Source: Alkalicoccus chagannorensis DSM 18086 (GTDB lineage Bacteria > Bacillota > Bacilli > Bacillales > Salisediminibacteriaceae). From it: 51,084 nucleotides of DNA. A program made the position numbers and the translations under genes. Shown piece by piece: positions 1,720 through 49,026 of the stretch (position 1 is the stretch's first letter; each line of letters starts with the position of its first letter). The DNA lies in NCBI RefSeq assembly GCF_000429725.1, contig NZ_AUCK01000028.1, positions 1 to 51,084 on the forward strand, written 5' to 3'. The notes under the pieces are model-generated. The model made no database searches and was not told the DNA's origin. It saw only the letters and a program-made list of their open reading frames with translations.

Positions 1720-1793
1720 GGAATGGTGGTAAAGGAGCATAGAGGTGGCAGAAGGGCAGAGAAGCTGGGAGAAAAGTATCGCCTTTCTTCTTC

Positions 1794-1833
1794 AGGGTGG
1801 CGTCTCCACGGTAGACGCCACCCTTCGTTTTTC
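1794..1833 (+). terminator. intrinsic terminator
   Basis: A perfect 12-bp stem (AGGGTGGCGTCT at 1794-1805 with its complement at 1813-1824) encloses a 7-base loop and is followed by TCGTTTTTC. It ends the 1534 gene on the plus strand, and lies 3 bp beyond the end of the convergent DUF3221 gene. Confidence 0.85.
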
Positions 1834-1835
1834 GC

Positions 1836-2225
1836 CTATTCAGATAGTACAACGATGCTGTCTGCTTCCCGCTGTGGAGGGAGAGAGTCCTCCTGCGTTC
1901 CGCTCCACTTCATCAGTACCTGCATGCCGATGTCGAGGTCTTCGTTTTCATCAGGGTCAACCCCATAATAGGCACCGTCCCGGTCCTGCGCTGCTTCGAT
2001 CCACTCGCTGCTCGATTTCTCCTGCAGCGCTTCTTCGTCGATGTCAGGAACGACCAGAATCTGGTCCCACCTATCTTCATGCTCGAGCCCATCGACAATT
2101 GTTCCCTGCTCCTGGCCTCCGCAGGCAGCGGAAGTACTCAAAAGTGCGAACGCCAATGCAATCAGGCTGATTTTCCTCCTTAAGCGTTCTCGCTGCGGAA
2201 GAAGCACCTTACCATAGGATGTCAT
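1836..2225 (-). CDS. DUF3221 (YobA-like) lipoprotein
   Basis: The 129-residue product has a basic N-terminus, a hydrophobic stretch and a lipobox ending LSTSAAC at about residue 35, so it should be lipid-anchored outside the membrane. The mature part reads as DUF3221: a QILVVPDIDEE strand, a conserved Trp-Ile segment (SEWIEAAQ), an AYYGV strand and a terminal basic-to-acidic strand pair. The family has no known function. The start at 2225 is preceded by GGAAGGGAGGG. It is last in a three-gene minus-strand run (3169 to 1836) with gaps of only 24 and 35 bp, so co-transcription is likely. Confidence 0.85.
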   Translation of the reverse strand: MTSYGKVLLPQRERLRRKISLIALAFALLSTSAACGGQEQGTIVDGLEHEDRWDQILVVPDIDEEALQEKSSSEWIEAAQDRDGAYYGVDPDENEDLDIGMQVLMKWSGTQEDSLPPQREADSIVVLSE

Positions 2226-3474: not shown

Positions 3475-4200
3475 TTAGGCTTCCGCCCAATCGGTTGTAA
3501 GGGTCAGATCGTTCGTCGCGATCCTGATCGCCGGATCCAGGTCCAGGATGCGCTTCATTTCCTGTGGGTCATCAACGGTCCAGACGCCGATCTCGATACC
3601 TGCCTGCTGCATGGCGTCCACGACCGCTTTGGTAAGAAAGCTGTAGTGGATGGCAAGGAGCGTCGAACCTGTCGCTCGAAGCTGTTCTTCCAGCATGACC
3701 GGCCGGCCGTAAATAAGCAGCCCCTTTCGCAGGGAAGGGTTCAGCTGATTGATTTTTTGGATGCTTTCGTGATCAAACGACGTAATCATCACGCGATCCT
3801 GCATGTCGTGATCGACGATCAGCTGCACAAGCTTTTCTTCGATCGTCGGATACAGGTCTCCCGCTTTCTTGATTTCAATATCGAGCAGCATGTCTTCCGG
3901 CAGCTGTTCGAAGACCTCCTGCAGCGTCGGAATGCGTTCTTCGAAAGCCTGTCCATACAGCTTCTCCTTGATGACAAGCTCCTTCAGCTCCGCAAGCGTA
4001 TGCGCGGCCACGAGCCCGGATCCGTTCGTCGTCCGGTCGACGGTGAAATCGTGGATAACGACCAGTTCTCCATCCTTCGTTTCCTGCACATCAAGTTCGA
4101 TCATATCCACCTGCGGATGCTCCGCTGCAAGCTGGAAGGCGCGGTGGGTATTTTCCGGAGCCCGGTCCGACCATCCCCGGTGAGCGATAAAATGATTCAT
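3475..4200 (-). CDS. glycerophosphodiester phosphodiesterase
   Basis: The 241-residue product hydrolyses glycerophosphodiesters to glycerol 3-phosphate and an alcohol. It begins with the family signature FIAHRGWSDRAPENT (metal and phosphate ligands), followed by IELDVQETKDGELVVIHD with the acidic metal ligands and catalytic His, and later LLDIEIKK and VMITSFDHESI, all typical of the GDPD TIM barrel. No signal peptide is present, so it should be cytoplasmic. The start at 4200 is chosen because AGAGGAGGAG sits just upstream; an in-frame ATG 45 bases earlier has no such site. It stands alone. Confidence 0.95.
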   Translation of the reverse strand: MNHFIAHRGWSDRAPENTHRAFQLAAEHPQVDMIELDVQETKDGELVVIHDFTVDRTTNGSGLVAAHTLAELKELVIKEKLYGQAFEERIPTLQEVFEQLPEDMLLDIEIKKAGDLYPTIEEKLVQLIVDHDMQDRVMITSFDHESIQKINQLNPSLRKGLLIYGRPVMLEEQLRATGSTLLAIHYSFLTKAVVDAMQQAGIEIGVWTVDDPQEMKRILDLDPAIRIATNDLTLTTDWAEA

Positions 4201-40854: not shown

Positions 40855-41922
40855 TTATAAATCATCTAACCCTCTCGTATATGTCTGATGACCAATCCCT
40901 TGCGCTGACAAATTTCTATAGAAATCGCCATAGATGCTGTGGGAGAATGCAGCAATACTTTGTGTGTTTACTGCCCTAATTCCAGGACGTGTAGTATGTG
41001 GATAGCTAGATACATCCTGTCCTAGATTATAGTCAAACTCCCATCTCCCATAGTCAGATGCTCGACTGGTGTAATCAGTGACTGCGATGTCTGGAATGAA
41101 AAATGACCACTGAACCTCAGGTGGACCCCATGTTAGGCTTATAGATAATTCATTTCCCGATGCTACGTTCTCTGGGCTGTGATCAACTAAGTGCATAGTA
41201 TCATAATCTTCTAGACTAGATCGCGTGTGTTGTTCGTTACTGTTATATCCTTGTGCCGGATCCATTTGATTTTCATACTTTACATCCCATACAGAACCAG
41301 GTCCATTGTTAAATTCTGTAGTTCCTCTGTTCGAATATAGAATAGTTGAATTTATCTGTCCAGCGACTACACTACTGTCAACATAATCATATATGGTAGT
41401 AGTGTGATTATCTATGGCCTCTGCACCAAATTCTTGTGTTGAGGCACCTAAAAGCTCTATCTCATCACTGTCGTCTTCTAAATTCTCAACCATTTTTTCG
41501 AGAGGACTAACTCGCTCTAAATCCTCAACATTCTCTTCCTCTACTTGCATATTTAAATTCTTTTCCGCCTCATTTTCTATACTGGAGTTATACTCTTCTT
41601 CAGTAATATTAGAAAAGTGAAAGTCCGTCTCTATACCCTCATTCTTTATTGAGAACCCCATTAAATGATTATCGTCTTCGAAGTTCACCGTTCCAGAAAT
41701 ATAATCTGAGACAATGTCTTTCTCAATTGGCTCTCCATTGTTGTGAATAAAAACATCCTCGTATTCCGCTAAATATTCATCAACTTCAACTTCCATACTT
41801 TCCAACTCATCGATAGAATAAGCATCGCTGTCATTCGGTAAATCTTCAAACTCAGCGTGCACAGTTTTCTCTGAAACGAAGAAAAGCAATGTTAAACTAG
41901 ATAATGCCAAAAATGTTTTCAT
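40855..41922 (-). CDS. secreted acidic protein of unknown function
   Basis: The 355-residue product has a signal peptide (cleavage at about VHA, residue 23), an acidic helical N-terminal half (about 24-155; Asp/Glu-rich) and a beta-rich C-terminal half with aromatic and Gly residues (ISLTWGPPEVQWSFFIPDI, SDYGRWEFDY). The second half may be a separate extracellular domain released from an acidic propeptide. No family is recognised. AAGGAG precedes the ATG. The gene is AT-rich and lies near the quorum-sensing pair, so it may be one of its outputs. Confidence 0.75.
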   Translation of the reverse strand: MKTFLALSSLTLLFFVSEKTVHAEFEDLPNDSDAYSIDELESMEVEVDEYLAEYEDVFIHNNGEPIEKDIVSDYISGTVNFEDDNHLMGFSIKNEGIETDFHFSNITEEEYNSSIENEAEKNLNMQVEEENVEDLERVSPLEKMVENLEDDSDEIELLGASTQEFGAEAIDNHTTTIYDYVDSSVVAGQINSTILYSNRGTTEFNNGPGSVWDVKYENQMDPAQGYNSNEQHTRSSLEDYDTMHLVDHSPENVASGNELSISLTWGPPEVQWSFFIPDIAVTDYTSRASDYGRWEFDYNLGQDVSSYPHTTRPGIRAVNTQSIAAFSHSIYGDFYRNLSAQGIGHQTYTRGLDDL

Positions 41923-42432: not shown

Positions 42433-42681
42433 ATCGTATTCAATGAGTCAGGATTATTAGTAATAGCTTTAATTTTAGGAATTGGTATTAATCTCTTAGC
42501 TAGGAAGTTCACAGAAAAAAAAGATTCATTTGAAATTTTAACTTTTTCAATTTTGCTGATTATTAGTGGCTTTGGTATTTACTTTTTGAAATTTAATTTT
42601 CTAATAAATACCTTTGGTTTAACTTTATTTGTTGTTGGTTTTCTAATGGGAACCTTTCATTTCTTATTCAAAAAAAATTAA
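42433..42681 (+). CDS. 82-residue membrane protein with ATC at the start position
   Basis: AAGGAGG (42417-42423) is followed after nine bases by ATC, which opens an otherwise unbroken frame to TAA 42679-42681. The product (IVFNESGLLVIALILGIGIN at the start) has three hydrophobic segments (about 6-21, 34-50 and 56-77) with a basic loop LARKFTEKKD. No ATG, GTG or TTG start exists before the last ten or so codons apart from internal TTG codons without sites. The reading frame has normal membrane-protein composition, so I think it is or recently was a gene. Confidence 0.55.
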   Translation: MVFNESGLLVIALILGIGINLLARKFTEKKDSFEILTFSILLIISGFGIYFLKFNFLINTFGLTLFVVGFLMGTFHFLFKKN

Positions 42682-42724
42682 GCTTCAATATAATTTCGAA
42701 TTAAGAGTAATGCCCGAGTTCGAC

Positions 42725-42857
42725 AGTGACTAGGTCCATGCTCAAGCGAATAAATATTTTGAGAGAGCATCGCAAGCCACTCATTCAAGGTATCAGCTTA
42801 CCTAGTCACTTATTGAACTGGGGATAAATAACTGATCCCAGAATTGAAAACAATTTC
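42725..42857. ncRNA. candidate structured RNA between convergent genes
   Basis: AGTGACTAGGT (42725-42735) pairs perfectly with ACCTAGTCACT (42800-42810) and encloses ATGCTC/GAGCAT (42738-42743 with 42765-42770) and AAGC/GCTT (42774-42777 with 42796-42799), giving a possible three-way junction. Two more hairpins follow at 42818-42841 (CTGGGGAT/ATCCCAG) and 42842-42855 (AATTG/CAATT). It may be a 3'-UTR/terminator array or a small RNA. No known family is recognised. Confidence 0.4.
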
Positions 42858-42888
42858 ATGTAAGCAAATCATATTATAAAACTAGAAT

Positions 42889-43017
42889 TTATGCTTCGTA
42901 AGGCGAGTCCAATGGAGAATACTTATCCTGATCTTCTGCACTAAAAATATCCATTTCATGATTATCCATGAATCCTACAGAAAAAGCTAAAAACATTGCA
43001 AATAAAATTTTTTTCAT
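42889..43017 (-). CDS. PapR-like signalling peptide precursor
   Basis: The 42-residue product begins with a short Sec-type signal (MKKILFAMFLAFSVGFM), continues with an acidic segment and ends KYSPLDSPYEA. B. cereus-group PapR is a similar exported precursor of about 48 residues whose C-terminal peptide (ADLPFEF type) is imported and binds PlcR. Here the last residues SPYEA or LDSPYEA would be the signal. GGGGAGG lies six bases before the ATG at 43017. It diverges from the PlcR-like gene, start codons only 40 bp apart. Confidence 0.75.
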   Translation of the reverse strand: MKKILFAMFLAFSVGFMDNHEMDIFSAEDQDKYSPLDSPYEA

Positions 43018-43057
43018 TTTTGTCCTCCCCTTTTTAAAATTTAGTGAGGTGTCAAGT

Positions 43058-43942
43058 ATGAGTACGAATAGCCTTGGTAAAGAAATTGTTGCATTGAGAA
43101 CATCTAACAATATGACTCAAAAGCAGCTCAGTGATGGTATATGTACACAACCTACTATTAGAATGATAGAGAGAGGTGACATAACGCCTGCCTTAGATAC
43201 AATTTATTTTATATCTTTAAAACTTAAAAAACCTCTTAGATATTTCATAAATATTTTGTTTTCTGATTCATTCTCTAGAATTGATAAATTAGTTGTGTAC
43301 ATAGAAGAACTAACAACTCAACAAAAGTATGAAGTTGTAAACGAGATTGTTGTTAAAGAGCTTTATGAAAATATAGAAAATGAATGGTATCAACACTTTT
43401 TAAAATGGCAGTATTACTTGAGCGCTTATGAAATAAAGAAAATCGATTTCAATGAAGCAATTAAAAGTTTAAAAGAACTAATTCAAAAGAAATATGATTT
43501 GATAATCATGAGAGATTTTTTGAAAGAAAGAATTTACAATACAATTGCCTTCTTATACGCCAAAAATCAAGAGATCGATTTAGCTTTGTTTTACTACAAC
43601 AAGATTAATTTCGATGAAGAAATTATTATTTCGCCCAGGCATAACATAAATATTTATTATTTAAGGGTGATGTTTAACAAATCTAAAACGTTATTTGATA
43701 GCGGAAATTATACAGATGCAATTGCATTGATTAAAGAAGGCATAGATAAATCCATAAAAGCGGAAAATATGTCTTTTATAGGTAATTTTTATTACTATTT
43801 AGGTATGAGCTATGAAGTGAATAATAATTCTTATCAAGATATTCGATCGTGTTATAAAAATGCCGAATACTTTTTTGACTTGTTGGGAAGAGAATTACAC
43901 TTGAATATCTTGCATAGTAAAAAATCAGAGTATATCAATTGA
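43058..43942 (+). CDS. PlcR-family quorum-sensing regulator (HTH-TPR, RRNPP)
   Basis: The 294-residue product has an N-terminal XRE HTH (about 5-62; MTQKQLSDGICTQPTIRMIE) and a TPR-type helical peptide-binding domain (about 70-290). FLKWQYYLSAYEIKKIDF and the later YYYLGMSYEVNNNS and KNAEYFFDLLGRE stretches closely follow PlcR of B. cereus (285 residues). It should bind DNA when loaded with the peptide encoded divergently. The ATG at 43058 follows GTGAGGTG. Its stop lies 4 bp from that of the convergent O-methyltransferase gene. No classical PlcR box (TATG-N8-CATA) was found. Confidence 0.88.
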   Translation: MSTNSLGKEIVALRTSNNMTQKQLSDGICTQPTIRMIERGDITPALDTIYFISLKLKKPLRYFINILFSDSFSRIDKLVVYIEELTTQQKYEVVNEIVVKELYENIENEWYQHFLKWQYYLSAYEIKKIDFNEAIKSLKELIQKKYDLIIMRDFLKERIYNTIAFLYAKNQEIDLALFYYNKINFDEEIIISPRHNINIYYLRVMFNKSKTLFDSGNYTDAIALIKEGIDKSIKAENMSFIGNFYYYLGMSYEVNNNSYQDIRSCYKNAEYFFDLLGRELHLNILHSKKSEYIN

Positions 43943-43946
43943 AATG

Positions 43947-44582
43947 TCACAATTTTATCGATAAGGTTAATCCATCTTTAATAGGCAGAATGCTTGTTTG
44001 TAGCCTTTCATCTTCGCTAGTACGTTTATTATATTTTTTTATTGTTTTTGTTTTATCGTCTTCAAGTTCCCATCTAACATGGCCTCCCCACATTGTATTA
44101 TCCGCTATTATTAGTCCACCTTGACGTACTTGATCCAATATACTATCAAATGCTTGCAAGTATAGTTCTTTTTCTAGGTCAATTAAAACAATGTCGTAAA
44201 TATCCTTGTTATTTTTTGTGAATTCTAGAGCGTCTCCAACATGAATATAAACTTTATTCTCTACATTCGAGCGTGAAAAGTAATCTCTAGCTATTTCGGC
44301 ATTATTACTGGAAAAATCTGTATAAATGACTTTTCCATTCTCATTTAATGCCTTAGCAAACCATATTGTACTATAGCCAATCGAAGAGCCTAATTCTAAA
44401 ACATTACTTGCATTCATCATTTTGGTCATTATACTAAGGAAGTTTCCTACTTCAGGACCTATGATTTGAGCGTTCTCATTAAGTGCGTATAATTCCATTT
44501 AACGGTAAATGTTATCTCTTGTATTAATATGCTCTTCTAAATACTTACTGACACTTGGAAGAGTTACAGCATTTAGCTTAAT
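43947..44582 (-). pseudogene. class I O-methyltransferase gene with TAA at codon 28
   Basis: The 183 residues after an ATG at 44498 contain the SAM-binding core of CCoAOMT-like O-methyltransferases: IIGPEVGNFL, VLELGSSIGYSTIWFA, DIVLIDLEKELY and GGLIIADNTMWGG. In the same frame upstream lies the normal N-terminus (LPSVSKYLEEHINTRDNIYR), separated by TAA at 44501-44499 and beginning at ATT 44582 behind AAAGGTGAG. So either the gene is broken or a shortened protein starts at 44498, where no ribosome binding site is visible. It would methylate a hydroxyl of an unknown product. Confidence 0.8.
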
Positions 44583-44954
44583 TATTTTATCTCACCTTTG
44601 CTGTTTGGAATAAGTATTGATGAATAATCTCTTTTGGGATTTTCGTGCTCCAAGAGCTCATTTTTATTGAAATCATACTCTAGTATTATAATTTCATTAT
44701 CATTATAGATTAGAATTTTATAAAAAGATCAATTTTCTGCTATGCCTTTCTGAGTCATAATCATCAGGGTGATCTGAAGTATCCTCCATTATTTATGGAG
44801 TTCCCCCAATCTTATTTATAATATCAGAAGCAAATTCTTCTGATATTTCTTTATATTCATCTGATATTGTATGAGCAATAAATTCTTTTGAATTTAATCC
44901 ATTACAAAGCTGTAAAATAGGGGTCTTCTATTTCAATTTTTGTATTTTCACTGA

Positions 44955-44959
44955 TTCCT
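44955..44959 (+). repeat. IS21 target-site duplication, left
   Basis: TTCCT lies immediately before the left end of the element and is repeated directly after the right end at 47486-47490. Confidence 0.85.
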
Positions 44960-45096
44960 TGTAAACGCTAAACTAGAGAGAGCAATTTATCACAATTAAG
45001 GGAGAGCAACATTTCACAAATAAGATTGACCAATTTCCATACAAATATGACACTTTCAATAGGCTGCCCTAGTTTATTGAAGGTGAGGAGATTGGA

Positions 45097-46650
45097 GTGA
45101 GCAGATTCATGAAATATGCAGAAGTTCGTAAGCTGCAAGATCAAGGTTTTTCTATGAATGCCATTGCTAAGAAACTGAAAATGTCGAGAAATACGGTGAA
45201 GGAGTACATAGGCATGGAGCCGGAGGAGTTCGAAGATTTCCTTGTTTCCCTGCGTACACGTTCCAAAAAGTTGGATCCCTTCCGGGATGAGATTTTCAAG
45301 TGGCTGCAGGAACATCCAGATCTAACCGGAGCTCAAGTCTATGACTGGCTGGAAGAACGAATGCAGTTCAACGAGACCGCAGAGAATACGGTGCGAAATT
45401 ACGTCAAGGAGCTACGGGAGATATACCACATTCCAAAAACGGTGAGACAGCGGGAGTATGCATCGATTCCTGAAAGCTTCCCGGGCCAGCAGGCCCAGGT
45501 GGATTTTGGACAAACGGTCGTCGAAACAATTGCAGACGGAAGGAAACACCTCTACTTTATCGCCTTCATCTTGTCCCATTCCCGGTACAAATATGTTGAG
45601 TGGCTGGATCGGCCTTTTCGAACATCGGACGTTGTGAGATGTCATGAGAATGCCTTTGCTTATTACGAGGGGATGCCCGTAGAGATGGTGTACGACCAAG
45701 ATGCTTTACTTGCCGTAAGTGAGAATGCGGGAGATCTCATATTGACCGCGACGTTCACCAAGTATCAAGCAGCTCGAGGCTTTCAGATATACTTGTGCCG
45801 AAAAAGCGACCCGGAATCAAAAGGGAAAGTGGAGCAGGTCGTGAAGTTTGTGAAATACAACTTCAGCAAACATCGACTGTTCGAGACATTGGATAACTGG
45901 AATGACGCCTGTCTGGCTTGGTTAAATCGCACCGGTAATCACAAGGTTCACCACAACATAAAAAAGAGACCTTCCGAAGTGCACGCCCTGGAAAAGCAAC
46001 ACTTGCGGAACGTCTCAACGAGTTACCTGTTTGAGGATGTTCTCCCTATCACTATAACAAGAAACATTCAGAAGGACAATGTCGTTCGCTACCTGCAGAA
46101 TCGTTACAGCGTTCCGACAGGGACGTACCAAGAAGCATCAGCCAATAAAGCCTATCTTCAAGTAACAGAAGACCAGACGCTCTTGATCCGACTGAAACCT
46201 ACGGGACCGGTCTTGGCTCAGCATGCACTCTCACTGGAAAAAGGCTTGGTCATTTCCGATCCACTACACCGGGAGAAGAAAGAATCAACACGGAGCCTAT
46301 TGGTTCACCAGCTGACCGAAGCTTTTTCAGATAAAGCGGGCATCCAATAGTTTATCGAAGCCCTTTCGGAAAAGTATCCACGGCATTTGGTTGATCAGCT
46401 GAAAGTGATTCAAAAAGCTATCCGCCACCATCCAACAAGTGCCGATGGCGCGTTGAAAGAGGTGCAGAAGCTGCAATTAATCAGCGGTAATGATTTTCGC
46501 GATATTATTTCCTCCCTAGAACTGCAAAACCTGAGCCAGGAACCGCCTGCTTCTGACCTGACATTGAATCAAAAGTACATCGATCTGGCAGCGCCCGAAC
46601 GCTCCAGTGCGACCTACCTGAGTGTTTTGAGTGGAGGTCGAAAATCATGA
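45097..46650 (+). pseudogene. istA: IS21 transposase gene istA with in-frame TAG
   Basis: The frame from GTG 45097 (AAGGTGAGGAG upstream) has an N-terminal HTH (FSMNAIAKKLKMSRNTVKEY) and the DDE core (AQVDFGQTVVE, VYDQDALLAV and ESKGKVEQVVKF). TAG at 46348-46350 follows GIQ; the same frame then continues FIEALSEKYPRHLVDQLKVI to the normal end at 46650, so one CAG-to-TAG change would explain the break. The DDE core is complete before the stop; about 100 C-terminal residues are cut off. Confidence 0.9.
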
Positions 46651-47425
46651 GCCATCCTTTTGATTCCTTACAACAACAATGCCGAACCTTACGGTTGGCA
46701 GAGACGGCAAAAGAGCTGCCCACCCTTCTACGCAAGGCAGAAGCGAAAGGTTGGACGTATCACGAGTTCACGCATGAACTTCTTTCCTATGAATTGCAAT
46801 GCCGGGAACAAAAGACGGTCGAGCGCTTGATGAAATGGGCGGATTTCCCGGAAGTGAAGACGCTGGACGCCTATGATCTTAAGGAACAAAACGCTTTAGG
46901 AGAAAAGGAATTTCATGTGTTGAAAGAATTGCATTGGGTCGAAGACGATTTCACGTTAATTTTAATGGGGCCAACAGGTGCAGGTAAAACGCACCTGTCC
47001 GTCGCATTAGGCGTTCATGCTGTGCAGCAAGGCTTCCAAGTTTCTTTTGTGTCCATGGCGCACCTTATGTATATCTTGAAAACGAGGGAGCATATTAAAA
47101 AATCCAATACCCGCTATAAGCGAATTATTGGATCGGATCTGATCTGATCATTATTGATGATGTCATGTACATGACGTATGAAGCGCACGAAGCCCATTTG
47201 TTTTTCCAGTTCATCTACGACCTATACGATAAAGCTGCCTTTATCTTAACGTCAAACAAAGGGCCGAATGAATGGGGAAAGTTCCTCGGCGATCCTACGT
47301 TGACGACAGCTATTTTAGATCGCCTGCTCCATCGGAGCGAAATCATCACCTTTGGCGACGAAACAGACAGTATCCGCATGAAATACCGAAAAACGATTTT
47401 TTCCGAAAAGGGTGGTCTGTCTTAA
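46647..47425 (+). pseudogene. istB: IS21 helper ATPase gene istB, frameshifted
   Basis: The product is an AAA+ transposition helper with Walker A LMGPTGAGKTHLSVAL (about 105-120). At 47136-47145 GATCT is repeated twice; one unit is a 5-bp tandem duplication that shifts the frame and gives a TGA right after RIIGSDLI. The rest (IIDDVMYMTYEAHEAHLFFQ, with Walker B) continues in the other frame to 47425. The gene overlaps istA by 4 bp. Confidence 0.9.
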
Positions 47426-47485
47426 TTGGGGAATCTTGATCTATCTTATTTGTGAAAAAGTGATCTCTTCTACTTGACGGTTACA

Positions 47486-47748: not shown

Positions 47749-49026
47749 ATGAAGAAAATTCTAGAATCATTTAAAATAAAATCTGATTACTTTAACTTAT
47801 TAAAAAATAATCCAGATTTCCATAAATTAATGTGGGCAGTTATTTTGTCTCAAATTGGAACTCAGATGCATCGGTTTGGCCTACCGTGGTTAGTCTACGA
47901 TATTTCTGGGTCAGCAGCCTTAATGGCTGTAAATTTCACTGTTTCTCTAATTCCAGGATTTATATTTGGTCTATTAGGAGGAATTGTTTCAGACAGGTAT
48001 AGTAGAAAATTCATTCTAATATCAGGAGATATACTAGCGTTTTTAGTGATATCTGTTTTCCTGTTGCTGTATTTATTATCAATGCCTATTGGCGTTTTAT
48101 CACTATTTATACTAACCTTTGCTCTATCTACATTAAGCGCACTTTCTACTCCTTCATTTGATGCTGCAGTCCCTAAACTTGTTTCAAATAAGGAAATTGT
48201 AGATGCAAATGGCTTATTTAATGTTTCAAGATCTTTCATAAGTCTTGGAGGCCCAGTATTTGCTGGAGTGATTATCGGTTTTTTTGGACCTTGGTCTAAT
48301 ATATTGTTGAACGGATTGTCATTTCTATTTTCTGCAATATTGATAATTTTCATAAGGCGCGATATCAATAGTGATATGAAATCGACTAAAGAATCTGTTT
48401 TAGAAAACATTAGTCAAGGTGCTAACTATGTCAGACAACATATCTGGCTCACACATGGAATTGTAATTATTTTTGGAGTCTTCTTAGCTACTGGAAGTGT
48501 GGGTAGTTTAATTCAGTTTTATTTGAGAGAAGGACTCAATTTAGAAGGTTTTATGTTTGGGTTCTCATTCACTTTATTTGAATTTCTACCTATGCTAGTT
48601 ATGGGTATTTATGCTCCAACCTTAGCTAAGAAATATAACTATGAATCGCTTATTGTGGTCGGGAGTATTGCTTTTTCTTTATCCCTAGTTGGTTTGGGAG
48701 CTACTACAATTTATCCCGTAGTTATAGGGTTCGGAATGCTTTTGAATGGATCAGCCGTCTTAATTATTATTAGCTGGAACTCAATGAGACAAGAAAGAGT
48801 TCCGAATAATCTGTTGGGAAGAGTATCAGGAGTTGCGTTTACTCTGCAATCTACTGCCCTTCCAATTGGTGGTGCTATCTCATCTTTTTTGGTTAATTTT
48901 ATTTCAGCACAATTCACTTTCATAATCTTCGGTGCGATTTGTTTAGCAATTTCAATCTATATAATATTTACCCCTTTCCTTAACAATGATTATTTGCGAT
49001 TGAATAAAGTAAACCAGGAAACTTGA
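47749..49026 (+). CDS. MFS exporter (MFS_3/EntS-like)
   Basis: The 425-residue product has twelve predicted membrane segments, an N-terminal cytoplasmic stretch, RFGLPWLVYDISGSAALMAV in helix 1-2 and motif A-like GGIVSDRYSRKFILI. It resembles MFS_3 exporters of siderophores, macrolides and peptide antibiotics. AACGGAG precedes the ATG. It diverges from the broken ThiF-like gene and shares its AT-rich composition, so it may be the export or self-resistance function of the same cluster. Confidence 0.9.
   Translation: MKKILESFKIKSDYFNLLKNNPDFHKLMWAVILSQIGTQMHRFGLPWLVYDISGSAALMAVNFTVSLIPGFIFGLLGGIVSDRYSRKFILISGDILAFLVISVFLLLYLLSMPIGVLSLFILTFALSTLSALSTPSFDAAVPKLVSNKEIVDANGLFNVSRSFISLGGPVFAGVIIGFFGPWSNILLNGLSFLFSAILIIFIRRDINSDMKSTKESVLENISQGANYVRQHIWLTHGIVIIFGVFLATGSVGSLIQFYLREGLNLEGFMFGFSFTLFEFLPMLVMGIYAPTLAKKYNYESLIVVGSIAFSLSLVGLGATTIYPVVIGFGMLLNGSAVLIIISWNSMRQERVPNNLLGRVSGVAFTLQSTALPIGGAISSFLVNFISAQFTFIIFGAICLAISIYIIFTPFLNNDYLRLNKVNQET

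Follow-up and report, generated by a model that had tools for sequence, protein, structure and literature searches.

A putative new member of the PlcR/PapR type of quorum-sensing pairs, with divergent genes and a new signal, in Alkalicoccus chagannorensis

In the Bacillus cereus group, papR, the gene of the signal peptide, has the same direction as plcR, the gene of its receptor. In Alkalicoccus chagannorensis DSM 18086, a salt-loving and alkali-loving Bacillus relative, the gene of a PlcR-like regulator and a short ORF for a putatively exported peptide are arranged back to back, which raises the question whether these two genes form a pair of the PlcR/PapR type and whether such a pair still works. 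The locus is part of a window of 51,084 bp, a whole contig of the 3.52-Mb draft genome, and comprises the following features:

42889..43017, minus strand: divergent exported propeptide ORF, 42 aa, conserved beside homologues of the regulator
42892..42912, minus strand: predicted mature signal, encoded by the last seven codons (LDSPYEA) and placed by C-terminal alignment with relatives
43018..43057, no strand: gap of 40 bp between the two start codons, with ribosome sites at 43023-43030 (minus) and 43046-43051 (plus)
43058..43942, plus strand: PlcR-type regulator, 294 aa, with HTH_3 at residues 12-63 and the RNPP_C TPR domain at residues 82-293

The regulator ORF is intact and preceded by the ribosome site GAGGTG. 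With an N-terminal HTH and a C-terminal TPR domain of the RNPP_C family, its 294-residue product displays the layout of RNPP/RRNPPA receptors (about 250-500 aa), and both Pfam matches lie above the curated cut-off (RNPP_C, 6.9e-41; HTH_3, 5.4e-9). In a sequence search of the PDB, PlcR (2qfc) was the sole strong relative (7e-33 over residues 2-286), and the stretch FLKWQYYLSAYEIKKIDF aligns with FLQWQYYVAAYVLKKVDY of PlcR, which bears out the HTH-TPR protein with PlcR-like stretches described in the initial annotation. An AlphaFold2 model calculated from a 14-row alignment (pLDDT 87.3, pTM 0.73) retrieved PlcR as the top five chains in Foldseek, followed by ComR, Rgg and PrgX; Rap was also ranked below PlcR, and some unrelated TPR proteins were among the weaker matches. 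Due to TM-scores of 0.63-0.67 and a large r.m.s.d. against PlcR, the domain arrangement of the model is poorly fixed. In the comparison with PlcR, PrgX and Rap that had been proposed for this protein, the best solved relative, by sequence as well as by fold, is PlcR.

The peptide ORF is likewise intact, with the ribosome site GGGGAGGA, a MKK start, a hydrophobic core and the C-terminus SPLDSPYEA, and thus represents the adjacent small exported propeptide gene typical of RNPP/RRNPPA systems; export is predicted here from charge, hydrophobicity, inspection by eye and a simple filter. By eye, the hydrophobic core of the propeptide is followed by acidic residues, and a clear signal-peptidase site could not be made out. 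The 42-codon gene had been predicted next to the regulator and is found there, with the two ATGs 40 bp apart, and the comparison of its end with that of PapR holds, since SPYEA has Pro, the aromatic residue and Glu in register. The signal region aligns with C-termini of relatives such as TLDLPYEA and APLDLPHEF, and a length of exactly seven residues would follow from the analogy with PapR7. Because the start codons are so close, both promoters must presumably overlap the neighbouring coding starts and each other. A promoter scan of positions 42600-43250 gave four matches, including a promoter-like one at 43011-43040 (plus strand), against 2.8 in shuffles and was therefore given no weight. Between the peptide gene and the gene at 40855-41922, an inverted repeat (GTGACTAGGT / ACCTAGTCAC, positions 42726-42830) noticed by eye is perhaps the remnant of a small mobile element.

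A signal-peptide ORF alone proves little, since 17 short ORFs of the 51-kb window, the peptide ORF among them, pass the same ribosome-site and signal-peptide filter; it is conservation that counts. If the ORF encoded some other small secreted peptide or had arisen by chance, with the receptor answering to something else, the abundance of such ORFs, the atypical signal sequence and the two Alkalicoccus receptors for which no peptide gene was found would be explained. One of the two is a second PlcR-clade receptor in the same genome (L002, contig C5: 158505-159386, minus strand), which keeps most of the pocket residues and has Arg at position 89; no peptide gene was found beside it. The other, its sister in A. 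urumqiensis (L009), is still adjoined by a subtilase-like ORF, and here too no peptide gene was found beside the receptor. Against such a reading stand the C-terminal core and the divergent place of the peptide gene, both conserved across genera. A receptor match is present in all eight Alkalicoccus genomes, and a divergent exported peptide ending DLPYE[WRD] lies beside the receptor in six of the seven genomes other than that of the window, A. urumqiensis being the seventh. Searched as a DNA pattern, with TGG also admitted in place of the stop, the C-terminus D-x-P-[YFHL]-E-x occurs at 33 places in the eight genomes, of which the 30 with a locus were read; the three others, all in genome G002, are without one. 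Among the 30 places are seven short exported ORFs, each the divergent neighbour of a PlcR-type regulator, and none with this core away from a receptor, which makes it very improbable that the peptide is not the ligand. In the genome of the window, a DLPHEG match was rejected as a peptide gene because it is the end of a 323-codon ORF. As Glu is fixed in the pattern, its conservation was judged from the receptor-linked peptides of relatives.

A survey of divergent HTH-TPR and short secreted ORF pairs in related genomes, as suggested in the initial annotation, was based on 397 genomes of the order, searched with a profile. Combined with the loci from the family and the genus and with the named ones, the matches listed amounted to 99 loci after removal of 20 duplicate loci and of L044, which has a stop in the receptor frame; near-copies and L123, equal to locus L045, were retained. 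The same peptide filter was applied in all positions, covering 320 bp upstream and 260 bp downstream. Candidates were divergent at 65 loci, downstream codirectional at 16, convergent at 8 and upstream codirectional at 1, and 18 loci had none, whereby one locus may count for more than one position, not every candidate (some of the 65 included) is pheromone-like, and the counts are not population frequencies since the loci are the best matches plus a hand-picked spread of 40 further ones. With L123 dropped and Pro demanded near the end, 62 of 98 loci were divergent by the scan and two more by hand (L037 and L039). The resulting labels were 63 divergent (the 62 from the scan and L037), L039 probable, 7 downstream, 1 convergent and 26 none; the peptide of L039 was later read and confirmed. 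Labelled divergent as well is L038, whose candidate of 61 aa is without the core and is probably not a pheromone. Conservation of the peptide gene beside homologues of the regulator holds in part: a divergent exported peptide stands beside many of them, in several genera, but no candidate in any position was found at 18 of the 99 loci or, with the Pro filter, at 26 of 98.

Several variants were observed in passing. In L006 and L007 the DLPYED unit is present twice. The propeptides of L037 and L039 (about 3675-3830, minus strand) continue after DLPHEF with six more residues, SVK[LV]DK, so that their signal may lie inside the propeptide or have to be trimmed at its C-terminus. Near the pair of Texcoconibacillus texcoconensis (L043) an apparent second copy of the propeptide ORF is found at 1731-2012 (minus strand), and in the Lysinibacillus alkalisoli homologue (L044, 4001-4861) the stop lies in the HTH region and a convergent short ORF ends TLPYEH. 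Alkalicoccus relatives (L010-L014) also have another divergent RNPP-like pair, with peptides ending GLPY[KR]HG or DLP[YF]RHR and, close by at four of the five loci, a protein of 208 aa that begins M[AS][DNK]VLFIKAN; this type of pair is not among the matches listed for the genome of the window.

How the regulator is related to PlcR was examined in two trees. In a quick tree of the 98 loci and PlcR, a branch with an SH-aLRT of 100 sets 43 rows, including PlcR and the regulator, apart from 56 other PlcR-like rows, and this membership in the PlcR clade agrees with the fold ranking. The branch is labelled divergent in 35 rows, none in 7 and downstream in 1; the next group, of 54 rows, comprises 28 divergent, 19 none, 6 downstream and 1 convergent. 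A more careful tree of 50 rows, to which seven plasmid receptors were added and in which two labels were corrected by hand (L045 to downstream, L075 to convergent), contains 38 divergent, 7 none, 3 convergent and 2 downstream. PlcR itself lies in a group of six rows (support 100/99), four of which have a known or candidate peptide, in each case downstream of the receptor and either codirectional or convergent, and the window receptor forms one group with three plasmid receptors (98/96). Clustering with XRE-TPR proteins that bind no peptide had been named as evidence against a pair: the regulator groups with PlcR in both trees, which comprise no XRE-TPR protein known not to bind peptides and no row entered by name for Rgg, NprR, PlcRa or TprA.

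In the PlcR clade as sampled, no label is more frequent than divergent (38 of 50 rows), and a peptide gene downstream of the receptor is found neither in the window pair nor in most of the clade. The initial annotation was right that the genes diverge here; the arrangement is not peculiar to this pair. That divergent order is ancestral would be the simpler reading, not a proven one because the tree is rooted at the midpoint. A published survey describes Bacillales systems, PlcR included, as encoding the pheromone immediately downstream of the receptor (PMC9765709). If divergent order is the commoner one in the PlcR clade, searches restricted to downstream peptides would miss many signals. The RRNPP_detector paper plots orientation per cluster (PMC10075063), and the pairs described here were found by name neither in the sections of it that were searched nor in the passages searched of a structural-phylogeny paper from 2025 (PMC12700828). 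No published description of the window pair was found in a search that covered papers outside the supplements of the existing RRNPP pair catalogues, and for Alkalicoccus and quorum sensing the literature searched yielded only work on mushroom storage.

The signal had been predicted to differ from known PapR pherotypes. PapR7 is given as ADLPFEF (PMC6568020, PMC3519770) and PapRa7 as CSIPYEY (PMC3519770). SPYEA keeps Pro and Glu of LPFEF at the C-terminus and has Ser where PapR has Leu. Among the 38 divergent peptides of the 50-row set, 25 have one of the endings LPYEx, LPHEx and LPFEx, with the six further residues after the core in L037 and L039; the other 13 end FPYEG, FPFEH, LPLEG, SPYEA, [LI]PSED (four), IGWRY (three) or PPEYR (one) or are without the core (L038). 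A hydrophobic residue before Pro is a trait of PapR and is present as Leu or Phe in the LPYE, LPHE, LPFE, FPYE and FPFE peptides, whereas Ser in this place is found, among the 38, in the window peptide only. The core DLPYEx and its variants offer a readable code for dozens of apparently uncharacterised pairs.

On the side of the receptor, peptide-contact residues are kept in nearly all rows (PlcR numbering: Asn159 in 49/50, Asn201 in 50/50 and Lys204 in 45/50), and the window receptor has the equivalents of all three. The residues reported to contact the Glu of PapR are Lys89, Gln237 and Tyr275 (PMC6568020); these are replaced by Gln, Asn and His in the window receptor, and the same trio is present in L063, whose peptide ends DLPYEV. 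At position 89, 47 of the 50 rows have Gln, Lys, His or Arg, and L071, L072 and L074 have Asp. The propeptides of these three end DPGIGWRY and carry Arg where PapR has Glu, an apparent charge swap of the contact between PapR Glu and PlcR Lys89. Such a swap, one event in one lineage, fits the divergent peptide as ligand, and it makes the specificity of receptor and signal directly testable. Moreover, the window receptor alone of the 50 rows has Arg instead of Ser35, a position presumed to lie in the recognition helix.

The origin of the pair can be approached from its nearest relatives and from the genes around it:

40855..41922, minus strand: secreted-looking protein, 355 aa, next long ORF on the strand of the peptide
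43947..44498, minus strand: O-methyltransferase, homologous to the gene beside the receptor on pE73 (55%)
44715..44964, minus strand: ThiF-family remnant, broken, beside the IS21 element (tblastn with pE73 ThiF, 8e-6)
45097..47425, plus strand: IS21-type element with a transposase ORF (rve domain), IstB homology in ORF 46647-47147 and a further short ORF at 47165-47425
47749..49026, plus strand: MFS transporter, with 60% identity to its counterpart in the pE73 cluster

The nearest receptors (best 3 of 24 records) are located on plasmids, namely pG5.M11b_1 of Lysinibacillus fusiformis (50.9% identity), pE73 of Exiguobacterium alkaliphilum (46.1%) and pLI0213a of Macrococcus bovicus (45.0%), where they are annotated only as helix-turn-helix proteins. 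Conversely, the best match to the L. fusiformis receptor among the 397 genomes of the order is the genome of the window (4e-89 vs 1.4e-64 for the next). The divergent peptides of these plasmid pairs end LPYEA, LPYEV and LPYEI, respectively, with gaps of 52, 46 and 41 bp. After the receptor gene, pE73 carries an O-methyltransferase gene, an ORF of 84 aa, a ThiF-family gene and the genes of a TPR protein and an MFS transporter; in the window, the ThiF remnant and the IS21 element, whose terminal inverted repeat is imperfect (44993-45033 / 47436-47476, 76%), lie between O-methyltransferase and MFS. The O-methyltransferase is probably truncated, since its homology starts upstream of the ATG in the same frame and across a stop. 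Relatives of the pair were not found in viral contigs (23 pattern matches), and phage records gave one weak match. Taken together, the locus is probably a quorum-sensing pair of the PlcR/PapR type with a new signal that was taken up from a plasmid.

The O-methyltransferase and ThiF genes of the linked cluster are damaged, and the pair itself may be partly degenerate, as suggested by Ser before Pro, Arg for Ser35 and the failure to find a PlcR box. This leads to the question whether the locus is a decaying relic of the plasmid cluster, with open ORFs and a system that no longer works in this genome. The ThiF remnant and the inserted element, the two substitutions unique in the 50-row set and the low G+C content of the receptor gene (27.7%, vs 46.3% for the window) are in line with decay. 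However, neither ORF is broken and each has a good ribosome site, and the PYE core, the Asn and Lys residues for backbone contacts and the compact divergent layout have all been kept, so that loss of function appears rather doubtful.

Neighbouring genes point to secreted products as the likely output of the family: a subtilase in Alkalicoccus and, on plasmids, small clusters for antimicrobial or modified peptides. A subtilase-like gene follows the peptide in five of the six other Alkalicoccus pairs (Pfam was run on that of L006 only), L004 having a different gene; a subtilase follows the peptide in Salipaludibacillus (L040) too, and in Salsuginibacillus (L045), with the peptide downstream of the receptor, it is divergent from the receptor. 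A Yip1-domain gene and a C39-peptidase ABC transporter come after the peptide gene in Rossellomorea sp. SC111. The M. bovicus plasmid (L153, 5264-7522) carries, beyond the pheromone gene and on its strand, genes for DUF5819, an SdpB-like HTTM protein and a DCC1-like protein, an arrangement suggestive of an SDP-like peptide system under quorum control; an annotated 55-codon ORF on the other strand separates the peptide from the DUF5819/HTTM genes, and the SdpB model match of the HTTM protein is below the cut-off. In the window, the 355-aa protein is a possible but weak candidate for a target. It was set aside: it could be assigned to no protein family, a search of 34 further genomes of the bacterial family gave no match, and there are partial matches on three Priestia plasmids only (28.8% over 75%).

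The PlcR box has been described as TATGnAnnnnTnCATA at the promoter (PMC2464732). Neither this box nor a TAT-N10-ATA palindrome was found when the window locus and PlcR-clade loci of Alkalicoccus were searched, and a palindrome inside the peptide gene, TTCATGATTATCCATGAA, was judged to be a chance match and rejected as a PlcR box. Exact TATGnAnnnnTnCATA matches are present in two of 46 divergent gaps (L068 and L073; 0.05 in base shuffles), and five matches with one mismatch compare with 1.35 in base shuffles. TAT-N10-ATA palindromes number 14 in 42 PlcR-clade loci, vs 2.5 in dinucleotide shuffles (highest 7), and nine of them, three being near-copies, lie 26-45 bp before the receptor start, vs 0.18 (highest 3); this motif and the interval -46 to -25 were picked after a first look at the data. 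Since this PlcR-box-like palindrome lies upstream of the receptor start in some relatives, the receptor may control the peptide promoter jointly with its own.

By analogy with PlcR, PlcRa and TprA, the propeptide would be exported by Sec, trimmed extracellularly to its last seven or so residues (LDSPYEA) and re-imported by an oligopeptide permease. It could then be bound in the TPR groove against the conserved residues Asn161, Asn207 and Lys210 and alter DNA binding of the receptor dimer. As the receptor belongs to the PlcR clade, activation is likelier than repression, TprA being an example of the other sign. Under the latter, the receptor would repress the divergent operon and the peptide relieve it, as in TprA/PhrA: TprA is a PlcR homologue with its peptide gene in the opposite direction and is described as usually repressing (PMC7595303), and a receptor bound in the 40-bp gap would be expected to block both promoters. 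Given that the receptor shares a clade with the activator PlcR, in trees that held no TprA, repression is rather unlikely. A wider and likewise rather unlikely proposal is that divergent genes with overlapping promoters were the original PlcR design and the plcR-papR order a late rearrangement, that compact plasmid versions (gaps of 41-52 bp) control small peptide-modifying or antimicrobial clusters, and that the imported LDSPYEA signal could also be heard by the chromosomal paralogue L002.

In conclusion, the pair appears, judged from its sequence, to be a new member with a new signal within the known PlcR/PapR type, and it is most useful as a pointer to a broad group of divergent PlcR-type pairs of which little has been described. 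It shares with PlcR-PapR of the B. cereus group an HTH and TPR receptor (28% identity in the Foldseek alignment) and a short exported propeptide with a C-terminal Pro-aromatic-Glu core. Unlike papR, which lies about 70 bp downstream of plcR (PMC6753895), the window peptide gene is divergent, with 40 bp between the ATGs; it encodes SPYEA instead of LPFEF, the Glu-contact residues of the receptor differ, and no PlcR box was found at the window locus. PlcRa of B. cereus ATCC 14579 is a PlcR paralogue with its peptide gene upstream (PMC4147580, PMC3519770), and the active PapRa heptapeptide, CSIPYEY, has the PYE core of the window peptide (PMC3519770). In contrast to the latter, PapRa is described as a protein of 93 aa with an internal active part.

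The peptide core of TprA-PhrA differs from the PapR-type core. In published descriptions of this Streptococcus pneumoniae system, TprA is a PlcR homologue, the two genes have opposite directions, as in the window, and the pair acts on a locus for lanthionine-containing peptides (PMC7595303); unlike the activator PlcR, TprA is a repressor relieved by its peptide. The closest likeness found is to the pairs on pG5.M11b_1, pE73 and pLI0213a, with 51, 46 and 45% receptor identity, divergent peptides and similarly short gaps. These plasmids have kept Leu before Pro and Ser35, and pE73, which has O-methyltransferase and MFS in common with the window, carries ThiF as an annotated CDS where the window retains a remnant.
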